In this document: positions 42,956 to 50,654 of the stretch, piece after piece
How positions within the stretch are numbered: the first letter of the stretch is position 1
Layout of the letters: every line of letters starts with the position of its first letter
The notes under the pieces: model-generated
Told to the model about the DNA's origin: nothing
What the model saw: only the letters and a program-made list of their open reading frames with translations
Databases searched by the model: none
Assembly: GCF_019704555.1 (NCBI RefSeq)
Contig: NZ_AP024745.1
Location: 8,688,501-8,752,500, forward strand
DNA from: Actinoplanes sp. L3-i22
GTDB taxonomy: Bacteria; Actinomycetota; Actinomycetes; Mycobacteriales; Micromonosporaceae
DNA length: 64,000 nt
Reading direction: 5' to 3'
Program-made: the position numbers and the translations under genes

Positions 42956-43600
42956 TCAGAGGCGGCGGATTACCGAGACGACCTTGCCGAGGATGGTGAC
43001 GTTGTCGGCGGGGATCACCGGGTAGTTCGGGTTCTGCGGGACCAGTTCGATGTGGTCGTCGCGGCGGCGGAACGTCTTGACCGTGGCCTCGCCGTCGATC
43101 ATGGCGGCGACGATCTCGCCGTTCTCCGCGACCGGCTGGGAGCGGACCACGACCACGTCGCCGTCGCAGATCGCGGCGTCGATCATCGAGTCGCCCTTGA
43201 CGTTCAGCGCGAACAGCGTGCCGTGACCGACCAGGCCGGTGGAGACGGTCAGATGGTCCAGCACGTGCTCCTCGGCCAGGATCGGCGCGCCGGCCGCGAT
43301 GTCGCCGAGGACCGGGATGGTAACGGCCGGGTCGGAGCCGGCCGAATCGGGCGCGAACTGGTCGCGCACGTCGACGGCCCGGGAACCGTTCGGCTGCCGC
43401 CGCAGCAGCCCGTGCCGCTCGAGAACCTTGAGATGATGCGCCACCGACGACGGCGAGACGAGCCCGACCGCCGCCCCGATCTCCCGCACGGTGGGCGGAA
43501 AGCCCCGCTCCCGCACCGAATCGCGAATCACCGCGAGAATGCGCTGCTGTTTCGCGGTGATCCGCGGCTGCGACCCGTCGGACCCGGCATCGACGCTCAT
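42956..43600 (-). CDS. lexA: LexA repressor
   Basis: A 214-residue SOS repressor with self-cleavage. The N-terminal winged helix (about 12-75) has [28 protein letters not shown]. The autocleavage Ala-Gly is in [12 protein letters not shown]. The serine is in VKGDSMIDA and the lysine in EATVKTF, all intact. The ORF length is normal for actinobacteria. It is not next to nrdR, the usual neighbour. It lies 68 bp downstream of a phosphotransferase gene on the same strand and has its own promoter region. Confidence 0.94.
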
Positions 43601-43668: not shown

Positions 43669-44505
43669 CTACGACTCACGAGCAACCGCCGCCCGGATCT
43701 GGCCGAGCCACTCCGCCGCGAGCCGCCGCCCGTCCGGAAGTTGATCACCACGCTCCCATCGCCAGGTCGTGATCATCGCGAGCACCAGGGTCCGGCAGTC
43801 CCGCAGCAGCTCCCGATCGATCCCCGGATAGTGGTCGCCGACGTCCTCGGGCGCGTGCGCGAGGTCGAACTCGACGGGCCCGCGGCAGCACGTCTCGAGG
43901 TCGATGAAGCGTGGCCCGTCCATCGTGGCCAGCAGGTTCCCGGGATGCGGCTCGCCGTGCAGCAGCTGCTCGGCCGCGCCCCGGCCGGCGATGGCCCGCC
44001 GCAGGCCCCGCAGGGTGTCGCCGAGCAGCTCCCGGTCCGCGGCGGCGAGCTCCGGCGTTCGGTCCGGTTCCGCCACGAGCCGCTGCGCCCACTCGACCCG
44101 ATCCATGAAGTGCGGCGCCGGTACGCCAACCCCGCGCATCCCGGCGTGCAGCCCCCGGAGCGCCTCCGCATACTCCCCCGGCGAACACTCCTGAGCAGGC
44201 TCGTAATAGGTCCACAGCGTGATCAGGTAACCGTCACGCGCGTAGACCCGCGGCTCCACCCGAGGATCCAGCGCGGCCACCGGACTGCCGGCCTCGGCCA
44301 GCCGTTGCGCGAGCTCGATCTCGAAATACGCGATCTGATCCGTCGCCGGCGCCACCCGGGCCAGCACGTCGCAGGGCAACAGCCGCAGCGTCAGCTTGTT
44401 CGAGTTCTGGAGCACGACCGCGTCGCCGGCGTCGAGACCGAGCGACGAGGCGGTCGCCATCGCCGCGGCCACCGCCCGCGAGACCTCCGAAGTCTCCACG
44501 ACCAC
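43669..44505 (-). CDS. Aminoglycoside-phosphotransferase-like kinase
   Basis: A 278-residue APH-fold protein. The catalytic loop is LLHGEPHPGNLL, where the usual HGDLHxxN has Glu for Asp, and the metal-binding Asp is in FIDLETCCRGPVEFDLAH. The N-terminal nucleotide lobe is present. Members phosphorylate antibiotics or small metabolites such as choline; the substrate here is unknown. The Asp-to-Glu change at the catalytic base could lower activity, but variants with HGEPH are common in actinobacteria. GTG start at 44505. Confidence 0.85.
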   Translation of the reverse strand: MVVETSEVSRAVAAAMATASSLGLDAGDAVVLQNSNKLTLRLLPCDVLARVAPATDQIAYFEIELAQRLAEAGSPVAALDPRVEPRVYARDGYLITLWTYYEPAQECSPGEYAEALRGLHAGMRGVGVPAPHFMDRVEWAQRLVAEPDRTPELAAADRELLGDTLRGLRRAIAGRGAAEQLLHGEPHPGNLLATMDGPRFIDLETCCRGPVEFDLAHAPEDVGDHYPGIDRELLRDCRTLVLAMITTWRWERGDQLPDGRRLAAEWLGQIRAAVARES

Positions 44506-44622
44506 CCGTCTCCCTGAACCAGCTTCGCGCGGACCCCGCCCCCGGCCGCCGCCTCCGCCTCGGCCGCCGCCATTCCAGCACGCCCCTACGACGTCGACGG
44601 AGCCGGCGCACGAAGCACCGGA

Positions 44623-46095
44623 TCAACGCACGAAGAGCAGGAACAGCCCGGCCCAGGTACATCCGATCATGAACAGCACCAGCGGCAACTCGCCGGCGAG
44701 CGTGGCCAGCGTCGACCGCCCCGGCACAGCGACCGCAACCCCCGCCGAGTCACCCCCGACCACGAGCCCGGACACGGCAACAGGCGCCGACGCGGCAGCG
44801 AGCGGCAATCCCGCAACGGGCAGCGGCCCGGCGGGCCGCGACGCGGTTGCGGGCGGCAACGCGGCGGCGAGCGGCGGCCCGCCGACGGGTGACGCGGCGG
44901 CGGTGATGGCCGCGTCGTGGGCGACGATCACGCCGAGTACATGTCCGACCAGGATCAGCGCGACCTGCGCGACCGCGATCACCGCCGGGATCGGCACCAC
45001 GTTCCACGCCGCACCCGGCGCCACACCCCACTGCTGGACCAGCAGAACAACACCCCGCGGCGCCTCGACCACCAGCAAAGACAGGTAATGGGCCAGGGTG
45101 TAACCCACCGCGATCGGCACCAGCGAGGCGGTCACGTCAAGCTTTCCAGCAATTTTGCGTACGGCGATCAGCACGCCCGCACACACCAGCACCAGCGCCC
45201 CGCTCGCATAGAGCGAGGCATGCCCGGCACGCTGCGTGAACCCGGCCCAGACCGGCGACCCCGAAGCGCTGTCGAAGACCGTCGATCCCCACCACACCGC
45301 CACGAAGGCCGCCAGCCCGCCGGCGAACGGCAACGGAACGGCGAGACCACTGAGCGGAACCCGCCACCGGAGCGGACTGAGCCGCCCGGCCAACTCCGAG
45401 TAGAGCTCGAAGCAGTCACCCCGGGCGAACCACTCCTCGCCCCGGAGCAGCGCCATCCCGAGTTGCGCCACCGCGTACCCAAGCAGGCAGCAACCGATCA
45501 CCAGCGGATCCGTCCGATCCGGGGCGACCAGCTCGAACCAGACGAACGCCAGCAGCCACAGAACGCCCGGCCACGCCGCGGCCCCCGGTCCCGGCCGCAG
45601 CCCGGCGCGCGGGAACCGCAGCAGCCGGGCGAGCGTCCGCAGCGGGTTGACCGCCCGCCACACCGGCCCGAAGAGCACGCTGAGCGGCACCAGCCCGACC
45701 CACAACCAGACGAACAGCGCATGCGCCGCCGGGTTCGCCGAGTTCCGCGGGCCGAGCAGCGCGTTCCCCACCAGGTACGCGGAGAGCAGCAGCACGGCGA
45801 TACGCAGCGCCGGCAGCCAGCCCGCGGTCCGCACCGGCCGGATCGTGCCCCCGCCCAGCCGCGGCCGGGTCCACAGCACCGCCGCGATCAGAAAGGAGAG
45901 CACCACGGTCGCCGCGCCGGCCTGCAGCACCAGGTCGAGCGGCAACGGCAGGTCGGACGAGCTACCGACACCATGAGCGAGCAGCACGCCGGACGAGCCG
46001 CCTCCATGAGCGAGCGGCACGCCGGACGAACCGCCTCCATGAGCGAGCGGCAACAGCACGCCGGGTGAGCTGCCTCCAAGGGCGAGTGGGCTCAC
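44623..46095 (-). CDS. Multi-pass membrane protein (annotated fenitrothion-hydrolase-like family), last gene of copper-type operon
   Basis: A 490-residue protein with about ten to twelve membrane helices. After an N-terminal repeat region the sequence AHGVGSSSDLPLPL starts the part that resembles an actinobacterial membrane family often annotated fenitrothion hydrolase; that name may not reflect its role. PVWRAVNPLRTL, RGEEWFARGDCFELYSEL and AHYLSLLVVEAPRG are likely conserved loops. GTG at 46095 overlaps the previous stop as GTGA. The first 45 residues include 11-residue repeats (LAHGGGSSGVP) from 33-bp DNA units, which multiply an Ala-His-Gly motif. It is the fourth gene of the operon starting at 49034. 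Confidence 0.7.
   Translation of the reverse strand: MSPLALGGSSPGVLLPLAHGGGSSGVPLAHGGGSSGVLLAHGVGSSSDLPLPLDLVLQAGAATVVLSFLIAAVLWTRPRLGGGTIRPVRTAGWLPALRIAVLLLSAYLVGNALLGPRNSANPAAHALFVWLWVGLVPLSVLFGPVWRAVNPLRTLARLLRFPRAGLRPGPGAAAWPGVLWLLAFVWFELVAPDRTDPLVIGCCLLGYAVAQLGMALLRGEEWFARGDCFELYSELAGRLSPLRWRVPLSGLAVPLPFAGGLAAFVAVWWGSTVFDSASGSPVWAGFTQRAGHASLYASGALVLVCAGVLIAVRKIAGKLDVTASLVPIAVGYTLAHYLSLLVVEAPRGVVLLVQQWGVAPGAAWNVVPIPAVIAVAQVALILVGHVLGVIVAHDAAITAAASPVGGPPLAAALPPATASRPAGPLPVAGLPLAAASAPVAVSGLVVGGDSAGVAVAVPGRSTLATLAGELPLVLFMIGCTWAGLFLLFVR
45975..46085. repeat. 33-bp tandem repeats at the start of the membrane-protein gene
   Basis: Units starting GAGCGAGC at 45975, 46008 and 46041 share most of their bases (GCACGCCGGACGA core), with a degenerate fourth. 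The 33-bp period keeps frame. Confidence 0.85.
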
Positions 46096-46886
46096 TTCAC
46101 TTCGAGCTGGAGGAGCAGCGTGTCCGGGTGGGCCTCGACGTCGAAGAGCCCGGCCTGCGAGGCGACGAACACGATGCACGTCGGCTGGCCGGGCTGCACC
46201 GGATACTCCAGGTCGTAGCCGTGCACGTGGATCTGCGCGGCGGCGTCCACCGAGACACCGAGCCGGACCTGGCTGCCGAGCGGCACGCTCACCCGGTGCG
46301 GCGCCGGCGAGGCCTTACCGCCCTGCAGCGCCACGGTGGCGACAACCTGATCCGGGACCGCCGAGCCGCACGCGGCCGGGGCGGCGGCCTGCGCCGCCGG
46401 TGCCTGCGCGCACCCGGGCAGCAGCGCGAGCGCCGCCAGCAGGAACGGAACGAGCCGCAGCGATCGCCGCCGCGGACCGGACATCGCCGGCGAGAGCGCC
46501 GGAGCTGCCGGGAAGACCGACGAGAGCAACGGAACCGGAGCCGGCAGCACGGCCGACGAGGACAACGACAGCGGCGGAAGCTGCGCCGGCAGCACGGCCG
46601 ACGAGTCCGACGACGGAAGCGGCGCCGACCTCGCGGCCGGAGAGGCCGACGAGCGCGGTGCCATCGGAGGCGCCGAGCGCGGCGACCGGCGCCGGGTCAG
46701 CGACAGCACCGCCAGCTGCAGGAAGGTCGCGATCGACGCCGACGACACCAGCAGCACGAACGCCGCGAACAGCGACGAGGCCGAGACCAGGCTGGTCGCG
46801 GTCATCAGGGTGTTGACGCCGATGACCGCCGGCAGGACCAGGAACGCCGACGACACCAGTAGAAGCAGCCCGATCAGCACCTTCAC
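46092..46886 (-). CDS. Membrane protein with C-terminal cupredoxin-like domain
   Basis: A 264-residue protein. Residues 1-25 and 28-55 are two membrane helices. A Ser/Ala/Pro linker with 45-bp DNA repeats follows. A third hydrophobic stretch ends in an internal lipobox-like LLPGCAQA near 150. The C-terminal 95 residues look like a cupredoxin-type beta-sandwich, with QIHVHGYDLEYPVQPGQ and DVEAHPDTLLLQLEVK. The HVH and late His could bind copper. It looks like a fusion of a small membrane subunit and a secreted lipoprotein. GTG at 46886 overlaps the upstream stop as GTGA. Confidence 0.7.
   Translation of the reverse strand: MKVLIGLLLLVSSAFLVLPAVIGVNTLMTATSLVSASSLFAAFVLLVSSASIATFLQLAVLSLTRRRSPRSAPPMAPRSSASPAARSAPLPSSDSSAVLPAQLPPLSLSSSAVLPAPVPLLSSVFPAAPALSPAMSGPRRRSLRLVPFLLAALALLPGCAQAPAAQAAAPAACGSAVPDQVVATVALQGGKASPAPHRVSVPLGSQVRLGVSVDAAAQIHVHGYDLEYPVQPGQPTCIVFVASQAGLFDVEAHPDTLLLQLEVK
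46540..46612. repeat. 45-bp repeat in the cupredoxin-protein linker
   Basis: GCCGGCAGCACGGCCGACGA occurs at 46540 and 46585. It encodes part of the Ser/Ala/Val/Leu linker (SSAVLPA twice). The period of 45 bp keeps frame. Confidence 0.75.
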
Positions 46887-47959
46887 ACCTCCTCCTGGGC
46901 GACCGCCGCGCGTTCCTGGGCGACCGCCGCGCGCTGCGCCAGCGTCCGCAGCACCGACGCGCCGGCCACCGCGACCCCGGCGCCCAGGCCGAGGGCGAGC
47001 ACGACCAGCACCCGTTCCACCACCGGCGGCCCGGCGAACGGCAGGACCGCCCGGTGGAACGCGGTGACATCCGGGAAGACGAAGACCGCGGTCAGCGCGG
47101 CGCCCGCACACACCGCGAGCAGCCCGGCGGGCCGGCCACGGAGCGCGACCCAGGCGCCGCCGAGCAGCAGCGGCCAGCTCAGCAGGTTGATCCCGGCCGC
47201 GTTGAGGAACGTGCCGGCGAGCGGCGCCGACTCGACCGCAAGGGTGGATCCGGTGACGTGCGCGACCGACGCGGCCATCGCGATCCCGCCGGCCGCGGCG
47301 AGCAGCAGGTCGGCGCGGTGCAGGCGGCGGGCGATCACGGGTACGGCCACGGCCGCCACGATAGCCAGCCCCCACCAGGGCAGCGGATTCGGCGGACGCT
47401 CACCGGTGAGGACGCCGGTGACGGTCACCGGGGTGCCGTTCGCGTCGAGCGGGAGCGACCAGTCCGCCGTACGGCCGAAATCGATGTTTTTGTTTTCTGG
47501 GGTTGATCTTGAATCTGCCCAGGTCAAGGCGGATCCCGGGGCGACGACGCGGTCGATGCCACCGATCGTGATCGGGCCGCCGGTGTCGTTGGTCAGGCGG
47601 AGCTTGGCGCCGTCCTCGATCGCGACGACGGTCAGTCCCGGGATCGCCGGTGTGATGGCCACCACGCGACTGCGGGCGTCGGTGGCCACGAGACCCCCGG
47701 CGTGCGCCGACGCCGGCCCGGCAGCACCGAGCACGATCGCCCCGGCGACCAGCGCGAGCACCGCCAGACGTCGGACCACCAGTCGCCCCAACGCCGATCG
47801 CCGCAGGGCCGGTCGCTGCAACACCGGCCGCTGCAACGCCAGCCGCCGCAACACCGATCGCCACGGCGCCAGCCGCTGCGACGCCGGTCGCCACGACGCC
47901 AGCCGCTGCGGCGCCGACCGCCGCGTGGTCGGTCGCCGTGACGCCGGGAACGGTCTCAT
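46883..47959 (-). CDS. Exported copper-type membrane protein with a mature N-terminal His
   Basis: A 358-residue protein. After about 66 Arg-rich residues encoded by 15-bp repeats, a signal peptide (LAVLALVAGAIVLGAAG) ends at PASA, leaving His-Ala-Gly-Gly as the new N-terminus. An exposed N-terminal His is the copper-binding end in CopC-like and PmoB-like proteins. A short beta domain (about 85-185) is followed by five or six helices to residue 335. The ectodomain resembles an actinobacterial family ending in P-x-P-W before the first helix, but shorter. The true start may lie inside the repeat region. It follows the PmoC-like gene by 10 bp. Confidence 0.65.
   Translation of the reverse strand: MRPFPASRRPTTRRSAPQRLASWRPASQRLAPWRSVLRRLALQRPVLQRPALRRSALGRLVVRRLAVLALVAGAIVLGAAGPASAHAGGLVATDARSRVVAITPAIPGLTVVAIEDGAKLRLTNDTGGPITIGGIDRVVAPGSALTWADSRSTPENKNIDFGRTADWSLPLDANGTPVTVTGVLTGERPPNPLPWWGLAIVAAVAVPVIARRLHRADLLLAAAGGIAMAASVAHVTGSTLAVESAPLAGTFLNAAGINLLSWPLLLGGAWVALRGRPAGLLAVCAGAALTAVFVFPDVTAFHRAVLPFAGPPVVERVLVVLALGLGAGVAVAGASVLRTLAQRAAVAQERAAVAQEEV
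47781..47945. repeat. Eleven 15-bp in-frame repeats at the 5' end of the exported-protein gene
   Basis: Units such as GGCCGCTGCAACGCC, AGCCGCTGCGACGCC and GGTCGCCACGACGCC run head to tail. They encode an Arg/Leu/Ala-rich five-residue repeat before the signal peptide. The period keeps frame. Confidence 0.85.
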
Positions 47960-47969
47960 ACCGATCGGC

Positions 47970-49034
47970 TCATTCCGGCTGGAGGAACTGGATGCTGCGG
48001 GTGACCAGCACCGTTGCCGCGCCGGTGAACGCGGTCAGGGTGAGCAGGCCGCTCACCATGTGGATGTTCCACCCGACCGTGCCGGTCTGAATCTGGCCGA
48101 CCAGCAGCACCGCGCCCCAGACGGCCGGCGGCGCGACCAGCCCGAACGCGAGCCAGCGAGCCGTGACCGGAGCGCTGACCAGGTGATTCGCCACGCGGAG
48201 CACCAACTCGACGACCGGCGCGGCGAGCGCGACGGTGAGCTGCGGCCACCAGGGCGCCTCGGAGTCGAACATCAGGTGCATGAGCAGCGCCGGGATGGCG
48301 ACGAGCGCGGTCGGCAGGCCGATCGGCAGCGGCCAGCGGCGGCCGATCATCAGGATCGGAACGAGCAGCAGAACCGTGCTGAACAGGTAACCGTGGACGA
48401 GCTGACCGTCCGGGGAGAACACGTTCGGCACGGCGACGCCGGTGCCCAGATGGCGGAAGCCGAGCGCGCTGGCGTGCAGGGAGTAGATGTGCAGCGGCAG
48501 CACGGAGAAGAGCGCGGAGATCCCGACCAGCCAGGCGCTGCCGAAGCCGAGCGTGCGACCCGGGACGGTGGCCATCATCAGCGCCGGGCCCATCGCGACC
48601 AGCACCATGCCCAGGATGATCAGCTCATGGCTGGGACTGACGAAGATCTCCAGGTTCTTCTCGATGCCGAAGATGTTGTGCCAGAGCGTGTCGACACCCC
48701 CGCCGACCAGCAGGGAGGCCATGCCGAGGAGCGGGATCCGGAGGGCGTTGGGCAAGGAGATCAAGCTTTGGTACGTCGGGATCGCTGGCAGTCTCGACCG
48801 CATGATCCAGAGGAGCGTGAACCCGGACGCCGCGATGCCGGAGTAGAGCACCCCGTGCCACGGGGTCCAGAACGTCTCCAGCTCGGGCGTGGTGGCGTGG
48901 GCATACGCGTCGAGCTGCAGGCCGATCACCAGCCAGGCGCTCGCGACCAGCAGCACCCATCGCTCCCGCGCGGTGAACGCGGCAAATCCGGGCGCAGCCT
49001 CGGTGGGCTGCGGCCGTTCCACGGACGTTGTCAC
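47970..49034 (-). CDS. PmoC/AmoC-like multi-pass membrane protein with two Asp/His metal motifs
   Basis: A 354-residue protein with about eight helices. Two similar sites are visible: Asp42-x3-His46-x13-His60 in LDAYAHATTPELETFWTPWH, and Asp115-x3-His119-x16-His136 ending NLEIFVSPSH. Both end in E-x-F-x-x-P-x-H and they are 73 residues apart. In PmoC of particulate methane monooxygenase the copper ligands are Asp-x3-His-x12-His and Asn-x3-His-x13-His, 71 residues apart, with F-x-x-P-x-H or near. This match is from memory of the family, not a search. It is the first gene of a four-gene operon. GTG start after GGAGGGG. Confidence 0.6.
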   Translation of the reverse strand: MTTSVERPQPTEAAPGFAAFTARERWVLLVASAWLVIGLQLDAYAHATTPELETFWTPWHGVLYSGIAASGFTLLWIMRSRLPAIPTYQSLISLPNALRIPLLGMASLLVGGGVDTLWHNIFGIEKNLEIFVSPSHELIILGMVLVAMGPALMMATVPGRTLGFGSAWLVGISALFSVLPLHIYSLHASALGFRHLGTGVAVPNVFSPDGQLVHGYLFSTVLLLVPILMIGRRWPLPIGLPTALVAIPALLMHLMFDSEAPWWPQLTVALAAPVVELVLRVANHLVSAPVTARWLAFGLVAPPAVWGAVLLVGQIQTGTVGWNIHMVSGLLTLTAFTGAATVLVTRSIQFLQPE

Positions 49035-49063
49035 GTTTCCCCCTCCGTTCGAACCGGGCGAAC

Positions 49064-49086
49064 GTAACCTACATCGCCGGTGTTAC
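49064..49086. promoter_or_regulatory. Candidate TetR operator GTAAC-N13-GTTAC
   Basis: An inverted repeat (GTAAC at 49064, GTTAC at 49082) lies between the divergent copper-type operon and TetR gene, 30 bp before the operon start. Its position suggests that the TetR next door controls the operon. Confidence 0.5.
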
Positions 49087-49109
49087 ATGGATCGATCAGA
49101 TACCGGACC

Positions 49110-49153
49110 TGTGGACAACGGATTGACGCGGGACGCCCCCGGCCTGTGGATAA
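49110..49153. promoter_or_regulatory. Two DnaA boxes in the TetR promoter
   Basis: TGTGGACAA (49110-49118, complement of TTGTCCACA) and TGTGGATAA (49145-49153, complement of TTATCCACA) are both perfect consensus boxes in one orientation, 35 bp apart. The second ends 10 bp before the TetR start. No replication gene is near. Confidence 0.5.
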
Positions 49154-49163
49154 GGTGTCTGCC

Positions 49164-49748
49164 GTGGCGAACCTGCGGGAAAACCAGAAGCTGATGACCC
49201 GGCGGCTGCTACTGGATCATGGCCTGGCGCTGTTCCACGAGAAGGGCTACGCGACGACCACGATCGACGAGATCGCGGCCGCGGCCGGCACCACCCGGAC
49301 CACGTTCTACCTGCACTTCCCGTCGAAATCGCAACTCATGCGGGCGCTCATCACGGATGTCGACGCCATCCTGACCGGCGCGGACGAGCCGCCGCTGGCC
49401 GAGGTCGTCGAGCGCGGCGACCGGGACCTGATCGAGCAGTGGATCGGCCGGAAGTTCGATCAGTGGGAGTCGATCCGGCCCTACCTGGTCGCGACATACC
49501 AGGCGGCGGTGCTGGAACCGGAGATCGCCGCCGCCCTGGAGACCTGGTTCCTGGCGACGACCGGGGCCATGCACGAGGGCCTGAACCGCGCCGGCCGCTT
49601 CGACCCGGCCAGCCGGAACATCCGCTGCGTGCTGGCCTTCGGCCAGTTCGAGTTCCTGGCGCGGCGCTGGCTACGGACGGGTTGGACCTTCGACCGCGAC
49701 ATCGCCCTCAAGTCCCTCACCGACTCCTGGCACCACCTACTGGCATAG
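49164..49748 (+). CDS. TetR family regulator divergent from the copper-type operon
   Basis: A 194-residue repressor. Helix-turn-helix TTTIDEIAAAAGTTRTTFYLHFPSKSQLMRAL is standard. The C-terminal ligand pocket (WESIRPYLVATYQAAVLEPEIAAALETWF) matches TetR_C of the aromatic or lipid-sensing sort, but the ligand is unknown. I use GTG at 49164 (MANLRENQK); a longer frame from 49080 would run through the palindrome and DnaA boxes. It probably controls the divergent operon. Confidence 0.85.
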   Translation: MANLRENQKLMTRRLLLDHGLALFHEKGYATTTIDEIAAAAGTTRTTFYLHFPSKSQLMRALITDVDAILTGADEPPLAEVVERGDRDLIEQWIGRKFDQWESIRPYLVATYQAAVLEPEIAAALETWFLATTGAMHEGLNRAGRFDPASRNIRCVLAFGQFEFLARRWLRTGWTFDRDIALKSLTDSWHHLLA

Positions 49749-49929
49749 CCCACCGCCGCAGCCACCCCCATCCGCGAGCGCGCCCACCGCTACAGCCACC
49801 TGCACCACCAGCCCGCCGCCGCAACCGCGCCTGCTGCCAGCGCGCCCACCGCAGCCCCCAGCGCGCCCGCCGCAACCGCCCGCGCCGCCGCGCCCGCGAC
49901 CGCCGCCGTCGCCCGCGCCGCCGCCGTCT
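49749..49929. repeat. CGCC-rich low-complexity spacer
   Basis: CCCGCCGCAACCGC- and CAGCGCGCCCACC-type units recur without a strict period. The stretch is non-coding and ends at the rhaM stop. Confidence 0.55.
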
Positions 49930-50271
49930 TCAGCCGAGGCGGGCGAGTTGCTCCTCGAGGTGGAAGATGTGGTCGAGCACCAGCATGCCCTCGTCCGGCC
50001 GCAGCTCGCCGAGGACCGGGAAGAACTCGGCCATAGCGGCCTGCCAGCGGGCGTTTACCTCGGTGCGGGCCATCGCCTCCTGAGCCGCCGCGAAATCGTC
50101 GGTCTCCAAAGTCCCGACCAGCAGCCCATCCGGCCGCAGGAAGAGCCGGTAGTTCCGCCAGCCGGTCGCCTGCAACGCCTTGATCATGTCCGGCCAGACA
50201 GCGGCATGCGCTTCCCTGTAGGCGTCCAGCTTTGCGGGATCGACCTGAAGCGTGAAACAGACGTGGGTCAC
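49930..50271 (-). CDS. rhaM: L-rhamnose mutarotase
   Basis: A 113-residue protein that interconverts alpha- and beta-L-rhamnose so that the isomerase can use the sugar. The fold is a dimeric alpha-beta barrel. VCFTLQVDPAKLDAYREAHAAVWPDMIKAL contains the catalytic His, and NYRLFLRPDGLLVG and MARTEVNARWQAAMAEFF complete the family pattern. GTG start at 50271. The palindrome TGAAACGTATCA is 5 bp upstream, linking it to rhaI. Confidence 0.92.
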   Translation of the reverse strand: MTHVCFTLQVDPAKLDAYREAHAAVWPDMIKALQATGWRNYRLFLRPDGLLVGTLETDDFAAAQEAMARTEVNARWQAAMAEFFPVLGELRPDEGMLVLDHIFHLEEQLARLG

Positions 50272-50275
50272 CTCA

Positions 50276-50287
50276 TGAAACGTATCA
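50276..50287 (-). promoter_or_regulatory. LacI-type operator before rhaM
   Basis: TGAAACGTATCA differs in one base from the perfect operator TGAAACGTTTCA before rhaI (40321). It lies directly before the rhaM start and next to the stop of the upstream gene. Confidence 0.65.
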
Positions 50288-50288
50288 G

Positions 50289-50654
50289 TCAGCAGGTCGA
50301 GTGGAACAGCCCTCCGACCGCTGCCCCCGCAGCCAGCTCGTTGTAGATCCGCACCGCCTCCTTGGTCTCCGCAACATGCACCTCGACATCCCGTTCCCGG
50401 AGCAGCTCCATCGTCGCCGGGTCGACCTGCAGCACCAGGTCCATCCCGCGGGAGAGCACCACCGTCGTAGCCCCGTTCTCCAACAATTCGACGACGTCAG
50501 CCGGCTGGATGCCGGGCTCATGCCGCGTACCGGTCTCATTCCAGTCCCAGGCGCGCCCACCCCCGGGCCACAGCTTGAAGTCCTTGCCGTCAGGAAGCCC
50601 CTCGACCGTCATCACTCCCCAGGAAACCGCAAGAACCCTCGGCGAATCCGCCAT
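50289..50654 (-). CDS. Mth938-like domain protein
   Basis: A 121-residue protein of the Mth938/NDUFAF3-like fold. Visible markers are WGVMTVEGLPDGKDFKLWPGGGRAWDWNETGTRH, typical of actinobacterial members, and a C-terminal ETKEAVRIYNELA. No catalytic role is proven for bacterial members. I use the second ATG (MADSPRV) because GGAGGG lies 7 bp before it. It is 18 bp upstream of rhaM, but an operator lies in between, so co-regulation is not certain. Confidence 0.82.
   Translation of the reverse strand: MADSPRVLAVSWGVMTVEGLPDGKDFKLWPGGGRAWDWNETGTRHEPGIQPADVVELLENGATTVVLSRGMDLVLQVDPATMELLRERDVEVHVAETKEAVRIYNELAAGAAVGGLFHSTC

Follow-up and report, generated by a model that had tools for sequence, protein, structure and literature searches.

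The 64,000-nucleotide stretch of DNA examined here, from the soil actinomycete Actinoplanes sp. L3-i22 (contig NZ_AP024745.1, positions 8,688,501 to 8,752,500; hereafter the window), contains a run of four genes, all on the minus strand, that forms a conserved set (Table 1). None of the four products matches a Pfam or NCBIfam family, and an Rfam scan of positions 44000-50300 was empty. An initial annotation had likened gene 1 to the PmoC/AmoC subunit of the copper membrane monooxygenases, with copper-type partners downstream and a regulator in front. Here, we assess how far this likeness extends and what the operon may do.

Table 1. Features of the four-gene operon and its upstream region, in window coordinates
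Feature	Position	Strand	Basis and remarks
Gene 1, PmoC-like polytopic membrane protein, 354 aa	47970..49034	-	ORF
Gene 1 site 1, codons D42-H60	48855..48911	-	D-x3-H ends helix 22-48, P-x-H begins helix 58-79; invariant
Gene 1 site 2, codons D115-H136	48627..48692	-	D-x3-H ends helix 96-122, P-x-H begins helix 134-147; invariant
Gene 2, exported domain plus membrane part	46883..47959	-	ORF; conserved H86, H234, D297, H302
Gene 3, cupredoxin-like exported protein, HVH at 46221-46229, lipobox-like LLPGC	46092..46886	-	Sequence
Gene 4, polytopic membrane protein, 454 aa	44623..45987	-	726 homologues at E<=0.001; AHG, AHY, GH-x7-HD conserved
Conserved intergenic block, core GCGATGTA, candidate operator/promoter	49064..49097	.	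Alignment, 9 upstream regions
Divergent TetR-family regulator	49164..49748	+	PF00440 E 1.5e-16; open frame from 49080, start inferred

The product of gene 1 carries two motifs, D42-A-Y-A-H46-x13-H60 and D115-T-L-W-H119-x16-H136, which lie 73 residues apart and both terminate in E-x-F-x-x-P-x-H, exactly as had been claimed. Loss of these residues from orthologues had been named as a possible refutation; all six are invariant in 31/31 rows of the gene 1 family alignment (A2), of which 29 are only 20-29% identical to gene 1. The rows were picked via profile match and not by motif, and the alignment omits weak or partial matches (including L067, L068 and L073-L077), L050 and most close relatives. 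A second alignment (A4, 66 rows) is likewise invariant at the six positions apart from one gap at D42. Among 4389 distinct open reading frames (ORFs) of at least 150 residues, 96 have both motifs of this double pattern, and all 96 match either a profile of the gene 1 superfamily described below or that of PmoC, the pool being made up of the window and all fetched loci and hence rich in members of both. Because the six residues are invariant and every ORF with the double pattern falls into one of these groups, the motif is more than a product of chance.

Database searches place gene 1 in no described family. Its best Pfam row is DUF4479 at E 0.33, below that family's cut-off, and at E up to 10 the A2 rows, 31 in all, bring up 16 Pfam families, each through a single row, with the AmoC model PF04896 absent; this model matches neither gene 1 nor anything else in the genome at E<=0.1. 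A sequence search of the PDB found no relative of gene 1, and the A2 profile retrieved a single PDB row at E 0.9. The AF2 model (mean predicted local distance difference test score, pLDDT, 91.7) comprises ten long helices.

Gene 1 has 170 homologues at E<=0.001, all unnamed or "hypothetical" among the 120 matches listed. The protein matches 20/60 related genomes, all but two of the same genus, and its profile (A1) matches 27/396 genomes of the phylum, its own included in both counts. Relatives also turn up on plasmids, in 7 of the 72,556 records searched (Deinococcus, Rhodococcus, Nonomuraea and Paenibacillus), where no match extends over 80% of the query, and in further named records of Promicromonospora and Dictyobacter. 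Beyond these proteins, here termed type A, lie two other types. Type B (L071, L072 and L074) has the motifs DVSWHVxIGRE(S/T)FWxPPH and D(D/G)LWHExYGLDVTVWSPPH, with ligand offsets of 0, 4, 17 and 0, 4, 18. Type C (L075, L076 and L129-L154) is exemplified by L142, with DVSWHIDFGRDEFLFTPSH and DELWHRNYGVDVTMWGPTH; its members (L075:997-2892, L129-L154) are mostly of about 600 residues and carry a longer C-terminal part behind the double Asp-His/Pro-His unit; no Pfam family was found in the two proteins scanned. The type-C profile (A6) matches 30/246 genomes. On profile comparison, type A and the joint B/C alignment are clearly related (hhalign probability 99.3, E 2.6e-20), and each seems to contain an internal repeat, its two halves matching one another at P 2.9e-6 in type A and 3e-8 in B/C; the halves of PmoC itself, compared in the same way, do not match significantly (P 0.12). 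Gene 1 is one of a widespread, undescribed superfamily of membrane proteins that may hold copper within the membrane, and the titles and opening lines of abstracts surveyed, mostly from open papers, mention no family of PmoC relatives or of copper partners outside the known monooxygenases. In one actinobacterial family, three genomes (G072, G087 and G100; loci L085, L086 and L087) have a true PmoC alongside gene 1 relatives; in L085 and L087, frames labelled by eye as PmoA-like and PmoB-like then follow.

According to PMC12576850, the copper ligands of PmoC are Asp156, His160 and His173 at Cu_C and Asn227, His231 and His245 at Cu_D, the latter being the putative active site of particulate methane monooxygenase (pMMO), and Arg165, at offset 9 from Asp156, adjoins waters at the copper site. 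These ligands agree with the spacings quoted in the initial annotation. The Cu_C set, Asp-x3-His with a later His, is present in gene 1 as an invariant D-x3-H-x13-H, with x12 in PmoC and type B. The Cu_D set, Asn-x3-His-x13-His, is absent: gene 1 has Asp and x16, and types B and C have Asp with x13. All 9 rows of a PmoC alignment (A3) have Trp at offset 3 and Arg-Asp at offsets 9-10. Among the 28 rows of the B/C alignment, which were chosen by their first motif so that its D, H and H are invariant by construction, offset 9 is Arg in 28/28, offset 10 is Asp in 24 and Glu in 4, and the residue before the first His is Trp in 16.

Several results speak for kinship with PmoC. A PmoC profile run over the 4389 ORFs recovered ten true PmoC and then eleven other proteins at E<=0.1, every one of them from the superfamily, which also supplied 30 of the 34 non-PmoC matches at E<=1 and 39 of the 46 at E<=5 (hypergeometric p 2e-47 at E<=1, ignoring kinship among its 100 members). 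Reverse searches linked the type-A profile to PmoC of NBB4 at 1.5e-4 and the B/C profile to PmoC of Nitrosomonas at 4.4e-4. Across 396 genomes, the Pfam AmoC model found three true PmoC and seven matches below its cut-off, one of which (L094, E 0.093) belongs to the superfamily by its match to the B/C profile at 1.6e-28; the others checked do not. When individual hairpins, with borders set by hand after viewing the alignments, were compared using hhalign, PmoC hairpin 1 came out on top among 79 windows for each of the two type-A hairpins and likewise for hairpin 1 of B/C. At full length, the six residues of type A pair with the six PmoC ligands in order, and an overlay of the predicted fold on PmoC covers 134/143 residues, a fit that helical bundles in general score alike. 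A search for PmoC in phages found none.

Several results weigh against this kinship. In the reverse hidden Markov model searches, each profile matched only 1/10 PmoC below 1e-3, the rest lying above 0.01 or unlisted. PmoC hairpin 2 ranked 25, 63, 2 and 45 of 79 and is unsupported alone, and B/C hairpin 2 placed PmoC hairpin 1 only 20th of 79. The full-length alignment of type A with PmoC is weak (P 0.007-0.012), and PmoA scores P 0.013 against the same profile. Single PmoC sequences outscored all 99 membrane decoys in only 3/9 cases for type A and 6/9 for B/C. In structural comparison, PmoC is equalled or exceeded in Z by helical bundles such as FAT domains and cytochrome bo3 subunit III, and a Foldseek search of the PDB and of viral structures with the full-length gene 1 model returned nothing at E<=0.001, with no PmoC or AmoC chain among the best 50 of each.

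Such weak single scores, and a second hairpin that does not stand by itself, are what would be expected if an unrelated copper transport or storage family had independently arrived at Asp/His pairs at helix ends, and the copper-related neighbours described below would also suit transport. Convergence of this kind must, however, account for six ligands in the same order and at nearly the same spacing, for the Arg-Asp/Glu pair and frequent Trp shared by B/C and PmoC, and for the enrichment of the superfamily in PmoC-profile matches, and we consider it somewhat unlikely. A further suggestion, that the four-helix unit holds haem or zinc in the manner of bis-His haem bundles or Asp/His membrane metallohydrolases, would fit a fold that generic helical bundles match equally well, a likeness which for that very reason speaks little for it. 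The ligands lie at helix ends, haem sites seldom have an Asp in each motif, and the 16 weak Pfam families of A2 include no haem protein and no hydrolase of the ceramidase or HlyIII type; this suggestion appears improbable. We conclude that gene 1 is not a PmoC, because it falls below the Pfam cut-off, has Asp in place of Asn and has no PmoA or PmoB found with it, and that it probably shares common ancestry with the copper-bearing hairpins of PmoC. It may bind metal as PmoC does.

The partner genes were followed through 27 loci (L021-L047) from named genomes of Actinoplanes, close genera and two Promicromonospora. Conservation of the gene order in other actinomycetes, proposed as a check, is borne out: genes 2 and 4 follow gene 1 in 26/27 loci, the exception (L044) being without gene 2, and gene 3 was detected in 19. 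Genes 2-4 are unmatched in 20/20 type-A loci of the wider family, for which 6-16.5 kb were fetched, so relatives of gene 1 also exist without them.

The predicted N-terminal His of mature gene 2 is upheld by HAGGL following the signal peptide in 26/26 loci that have the gene, 25 after Ala-x-Ala and one (L034) after Val-Ala-Ala. This residue is H86 (codon 47702-47704); the 26 aligned rows were chosen by the A-x-A-HAGGL motif, and its conservation there is by construction. In the membrane part, H234, D297 and H302 are conserved in at least 95% of these rows. A 15/30-bp tandem repeat at 47779-47947 encodes an Arg/Pro-rich N terminus ahead of the signal peptide; the true start may lie further downstream. 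Gene 3 begins at a GTG at 46886 that overlaps the gene 2 stop and indeed encodes HVH (as HVHGYD) in a lipoprotein-like, putative cupredoxin. Its own PDB matches are led by cytochrome oxidase subunit II (E 0.69), and a relative (L102) matches that subunit at E 0.002; we describe it as a cupredoxin-like exported protein with a weak likeness, seen mainly via the relative, to the copper domains of subunit II. In gene 4, AHG near the start, AHY and GH-x7-HD are kept in at least 95% of 125 rows. Its open frame reaches up to 46179 through a tandem repeat; the start is most likely the GTG at 45987, and the listed 46179 is probably too early, because the protein database copy of this gene has 454 residues and starts MLLAHG. 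The repeat (33 bp, 45946-46086) lies upstream of gene 4 and consists of further copies of the unit that encodes its conserved LAHG N terminus. A reading of gene 4 as a "fenitrothion hydrolase" found no support.

Comparison by hhalign gave no credible relation of genes 2 and 4 to PmoA, PmoB or PmoC, or of gene 3 to PmoB. In the genome, PF02461 has no match; nor does PF04744, although the same search matched no control genome and this absence is less sure. The proposal that the operon is a distant relative of the copper membrane monooxygenases is supported for gene 1 at the level of a PmoC domain, through motif spacing, profile cross-matches, hairpin ranking against decoys and a compatible overlay, but is unsupported for the partner genes.

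Genes 3 and 4 have a distribution of their own. Among the 72,556 plasmid records, gene 4 relatives occur in 19 and PmoC in 10, and four records, all actinobacterial, have both, where chance would give about 0.003 on the assumption, untrue of related plasmids, that records are independent. The gap from gene 4 to pmoC is about 1.1 kb in PH-06, 7.2 kb in NBB4, 7.8 kb in WAY2 and 9.8 kb in ZPP, with a gene 3 relative immediately preceding gene 4 in PH-06, NBB4 and WAY2. Gene 1 aside, this co-occurrence and the adjoining gene 3 link the pair with copper monooxygenases; it is a candidate copper delivery module. On the mycobacterial and rhodococcal plasmids, the cupredoxin-like and membrane protein pairs near pmoCAB lie at L102:7423-9326, L104:11306-13101 and L103:11672-13263. 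A gene 4 relative is present in 4/10 chosen actinobacterial genomes that have gene 1 relatives. In Pseudonocardia sp. EC080619-01 (L106:5388-9218), two other hypothetical proteins precede the gene 3-4 pair, making up another set of four genes, and a histidine kinase and a response regulator come next.

Copper-related genes also appear near the wider family. The Rhodococcus relative L083 adjoins a multicopper oxidase, a two-component system and a cation transporter. Of the neighbouring ORFs, 63/116 were scanned at the 20 type-A loci, yielding three heavy-metal-binding domains (HMBD), two multicopper oxidase domains and one P-type ATPase domain beside many unrelated families found once each, and 81/120 at the B/C loci, yielding one PpoB2 copper chaperone (families being the best 25 of 79 and of 100, with the central ORF taken from the wrong strand at L113, L117, L119 and L128). 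As the counts have no background control, the context is no more than suggestive.

An alternative is that the operon specifies a novel copper-dependent membrane oxygenase or oxidase, in which gene 1 would replace PmoC as active-site subunit and genes 2-4 would be non-homologous partners. The Cu_C/Cu_D-like ligand sets of gene 1, the assignment of Cu_D as putative active site of pMMO in PMC12576850, the stable gene set and the adjoining regulator are all in keeping with such an enzyme. Nevertheless, no relative of PmoA or PmoB lies in the operon or was found in the genome, no catabolic gene was recognised among genes 1-4, some neighbours of the wider family are copper-handling genes, and the 20 wide loci have no genes 2-4 in the fetched stretches; we regard this enzyme as unlikely.

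A divergent TetR gene does stand in front of the operon, as had been noted; for its start, a position near 49164 is likelier than 49080. The reported palindrome is weak: arms of 5 bp (GTAAC/GTTAC, 13-bp gap) fall within the conserved intergenic block, in which the core GCGATGTA recurs in 9/9 aligned upstream regions, but both arms are intact in only 4/9, and no inverted repeat with 8-bp arms was found. TetR relatives scoring above 300 bits occur in only 4/27 named loci, the upstream flank being short in L023 and L037, so any link between regulator and block is tentative. A LexA-like repressor, read by eye, lies nearby at 42956-43600.

Taken together, we favour, with a probability of about 0.6, a copper-handling membrane protein or complex in which the hairpins of gene 1 and the Cu_C/Cu_D part of PmoC are remote homologues. 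From conservation, gene order, predicted helices and remote similarity, we infer the copper, the sidedness, the formation of a complex and the direction of copper flow. The first four helices of the superfamily would form two helical hairpins, in each of which Asp-x3-His closes one helix and Pro-x-His opens the next, the unit being the part likely related to PmoC. Near the extracytoplasmic face, gene 1 would most likely have one or two Asp-His-His sites that bind copper, and it would work with the exported, His-first gene 2, the cupredoxin-like lipoprotein gene 3 and the conserved-His membrane protein gene 4. Genes 3 and 4 would most likely capture or pass on copper, and gene 1 would hold it for delivery or redox use. 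More speculatively, and on present evidence with rather little likelihood, the copper half of PmoC could be one branch of an ancient membrane copper superfamily with duplicated Asp-His/Pro-His hairpins (Actinomycetota, Deinococcota, Bacillota and Chloroflexota), a unit recruited by methane and ammonia monooxygenase, with the Actinoplanes operon as a separate, still active copper enzyme.

With a PmoC relative that has both ligand sets and comes from organisms where neither PmoA nor PmoB was found, the Cu_C/Cu_D unit could be studied alone. The superfamily would supply an outgroup for PmoC, bearing on its origin and on which copper site matters, and the gene 3-4 pair near pmoCAB would be a candidate, open to testing, for supplying copper to the hydrocarbon monooxygenases of actinobacteria.

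Known systems share parts of this arrangement. A gene 3 relative has a cupredoxin-type stretch resembling cytochrome oxidase subunit II, at E 0.0006-0.009 only; the matched stretch has no Cys, and the relative is therefore without a Cu_A site. The predicted N-terminal His of gene 2 and the HxH of gene 3 recall the N-terminal domain of PmoB, where an N-terminal His and HxH are joined in the Cu_B site, and a PmoB-like frame with an HGE start and WHVH is present in L087 and L085; in the operon, these features are divided between two separate genes that have no profile similarity to PmoB. The actinobacterial pmoCAB loci of NBB4, PH-06 and WAY2 have the cupredoxin-like and membrane protein pair, both annotated as hypothetical, with no match to gene 1 or gene 2, and that of ZPP has a gene 4 relative. 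From PmoC and AmoC, gene 1 differs in the longer loops of type A, its extra C-terminal helices, and the lack of PmoA, PmoB and a Pfam match. In common with them it has a pair of D/N-x3-H...P-x-H hairpins, whose order is the same and whose separation is 73 residues in gene 1 against 71-74 in PmoC; in types B and C the first motif also shares Arg-Asp(Glu) at its offsets 9-10, and the ligand offsets of type B are exactly those of PmoC.

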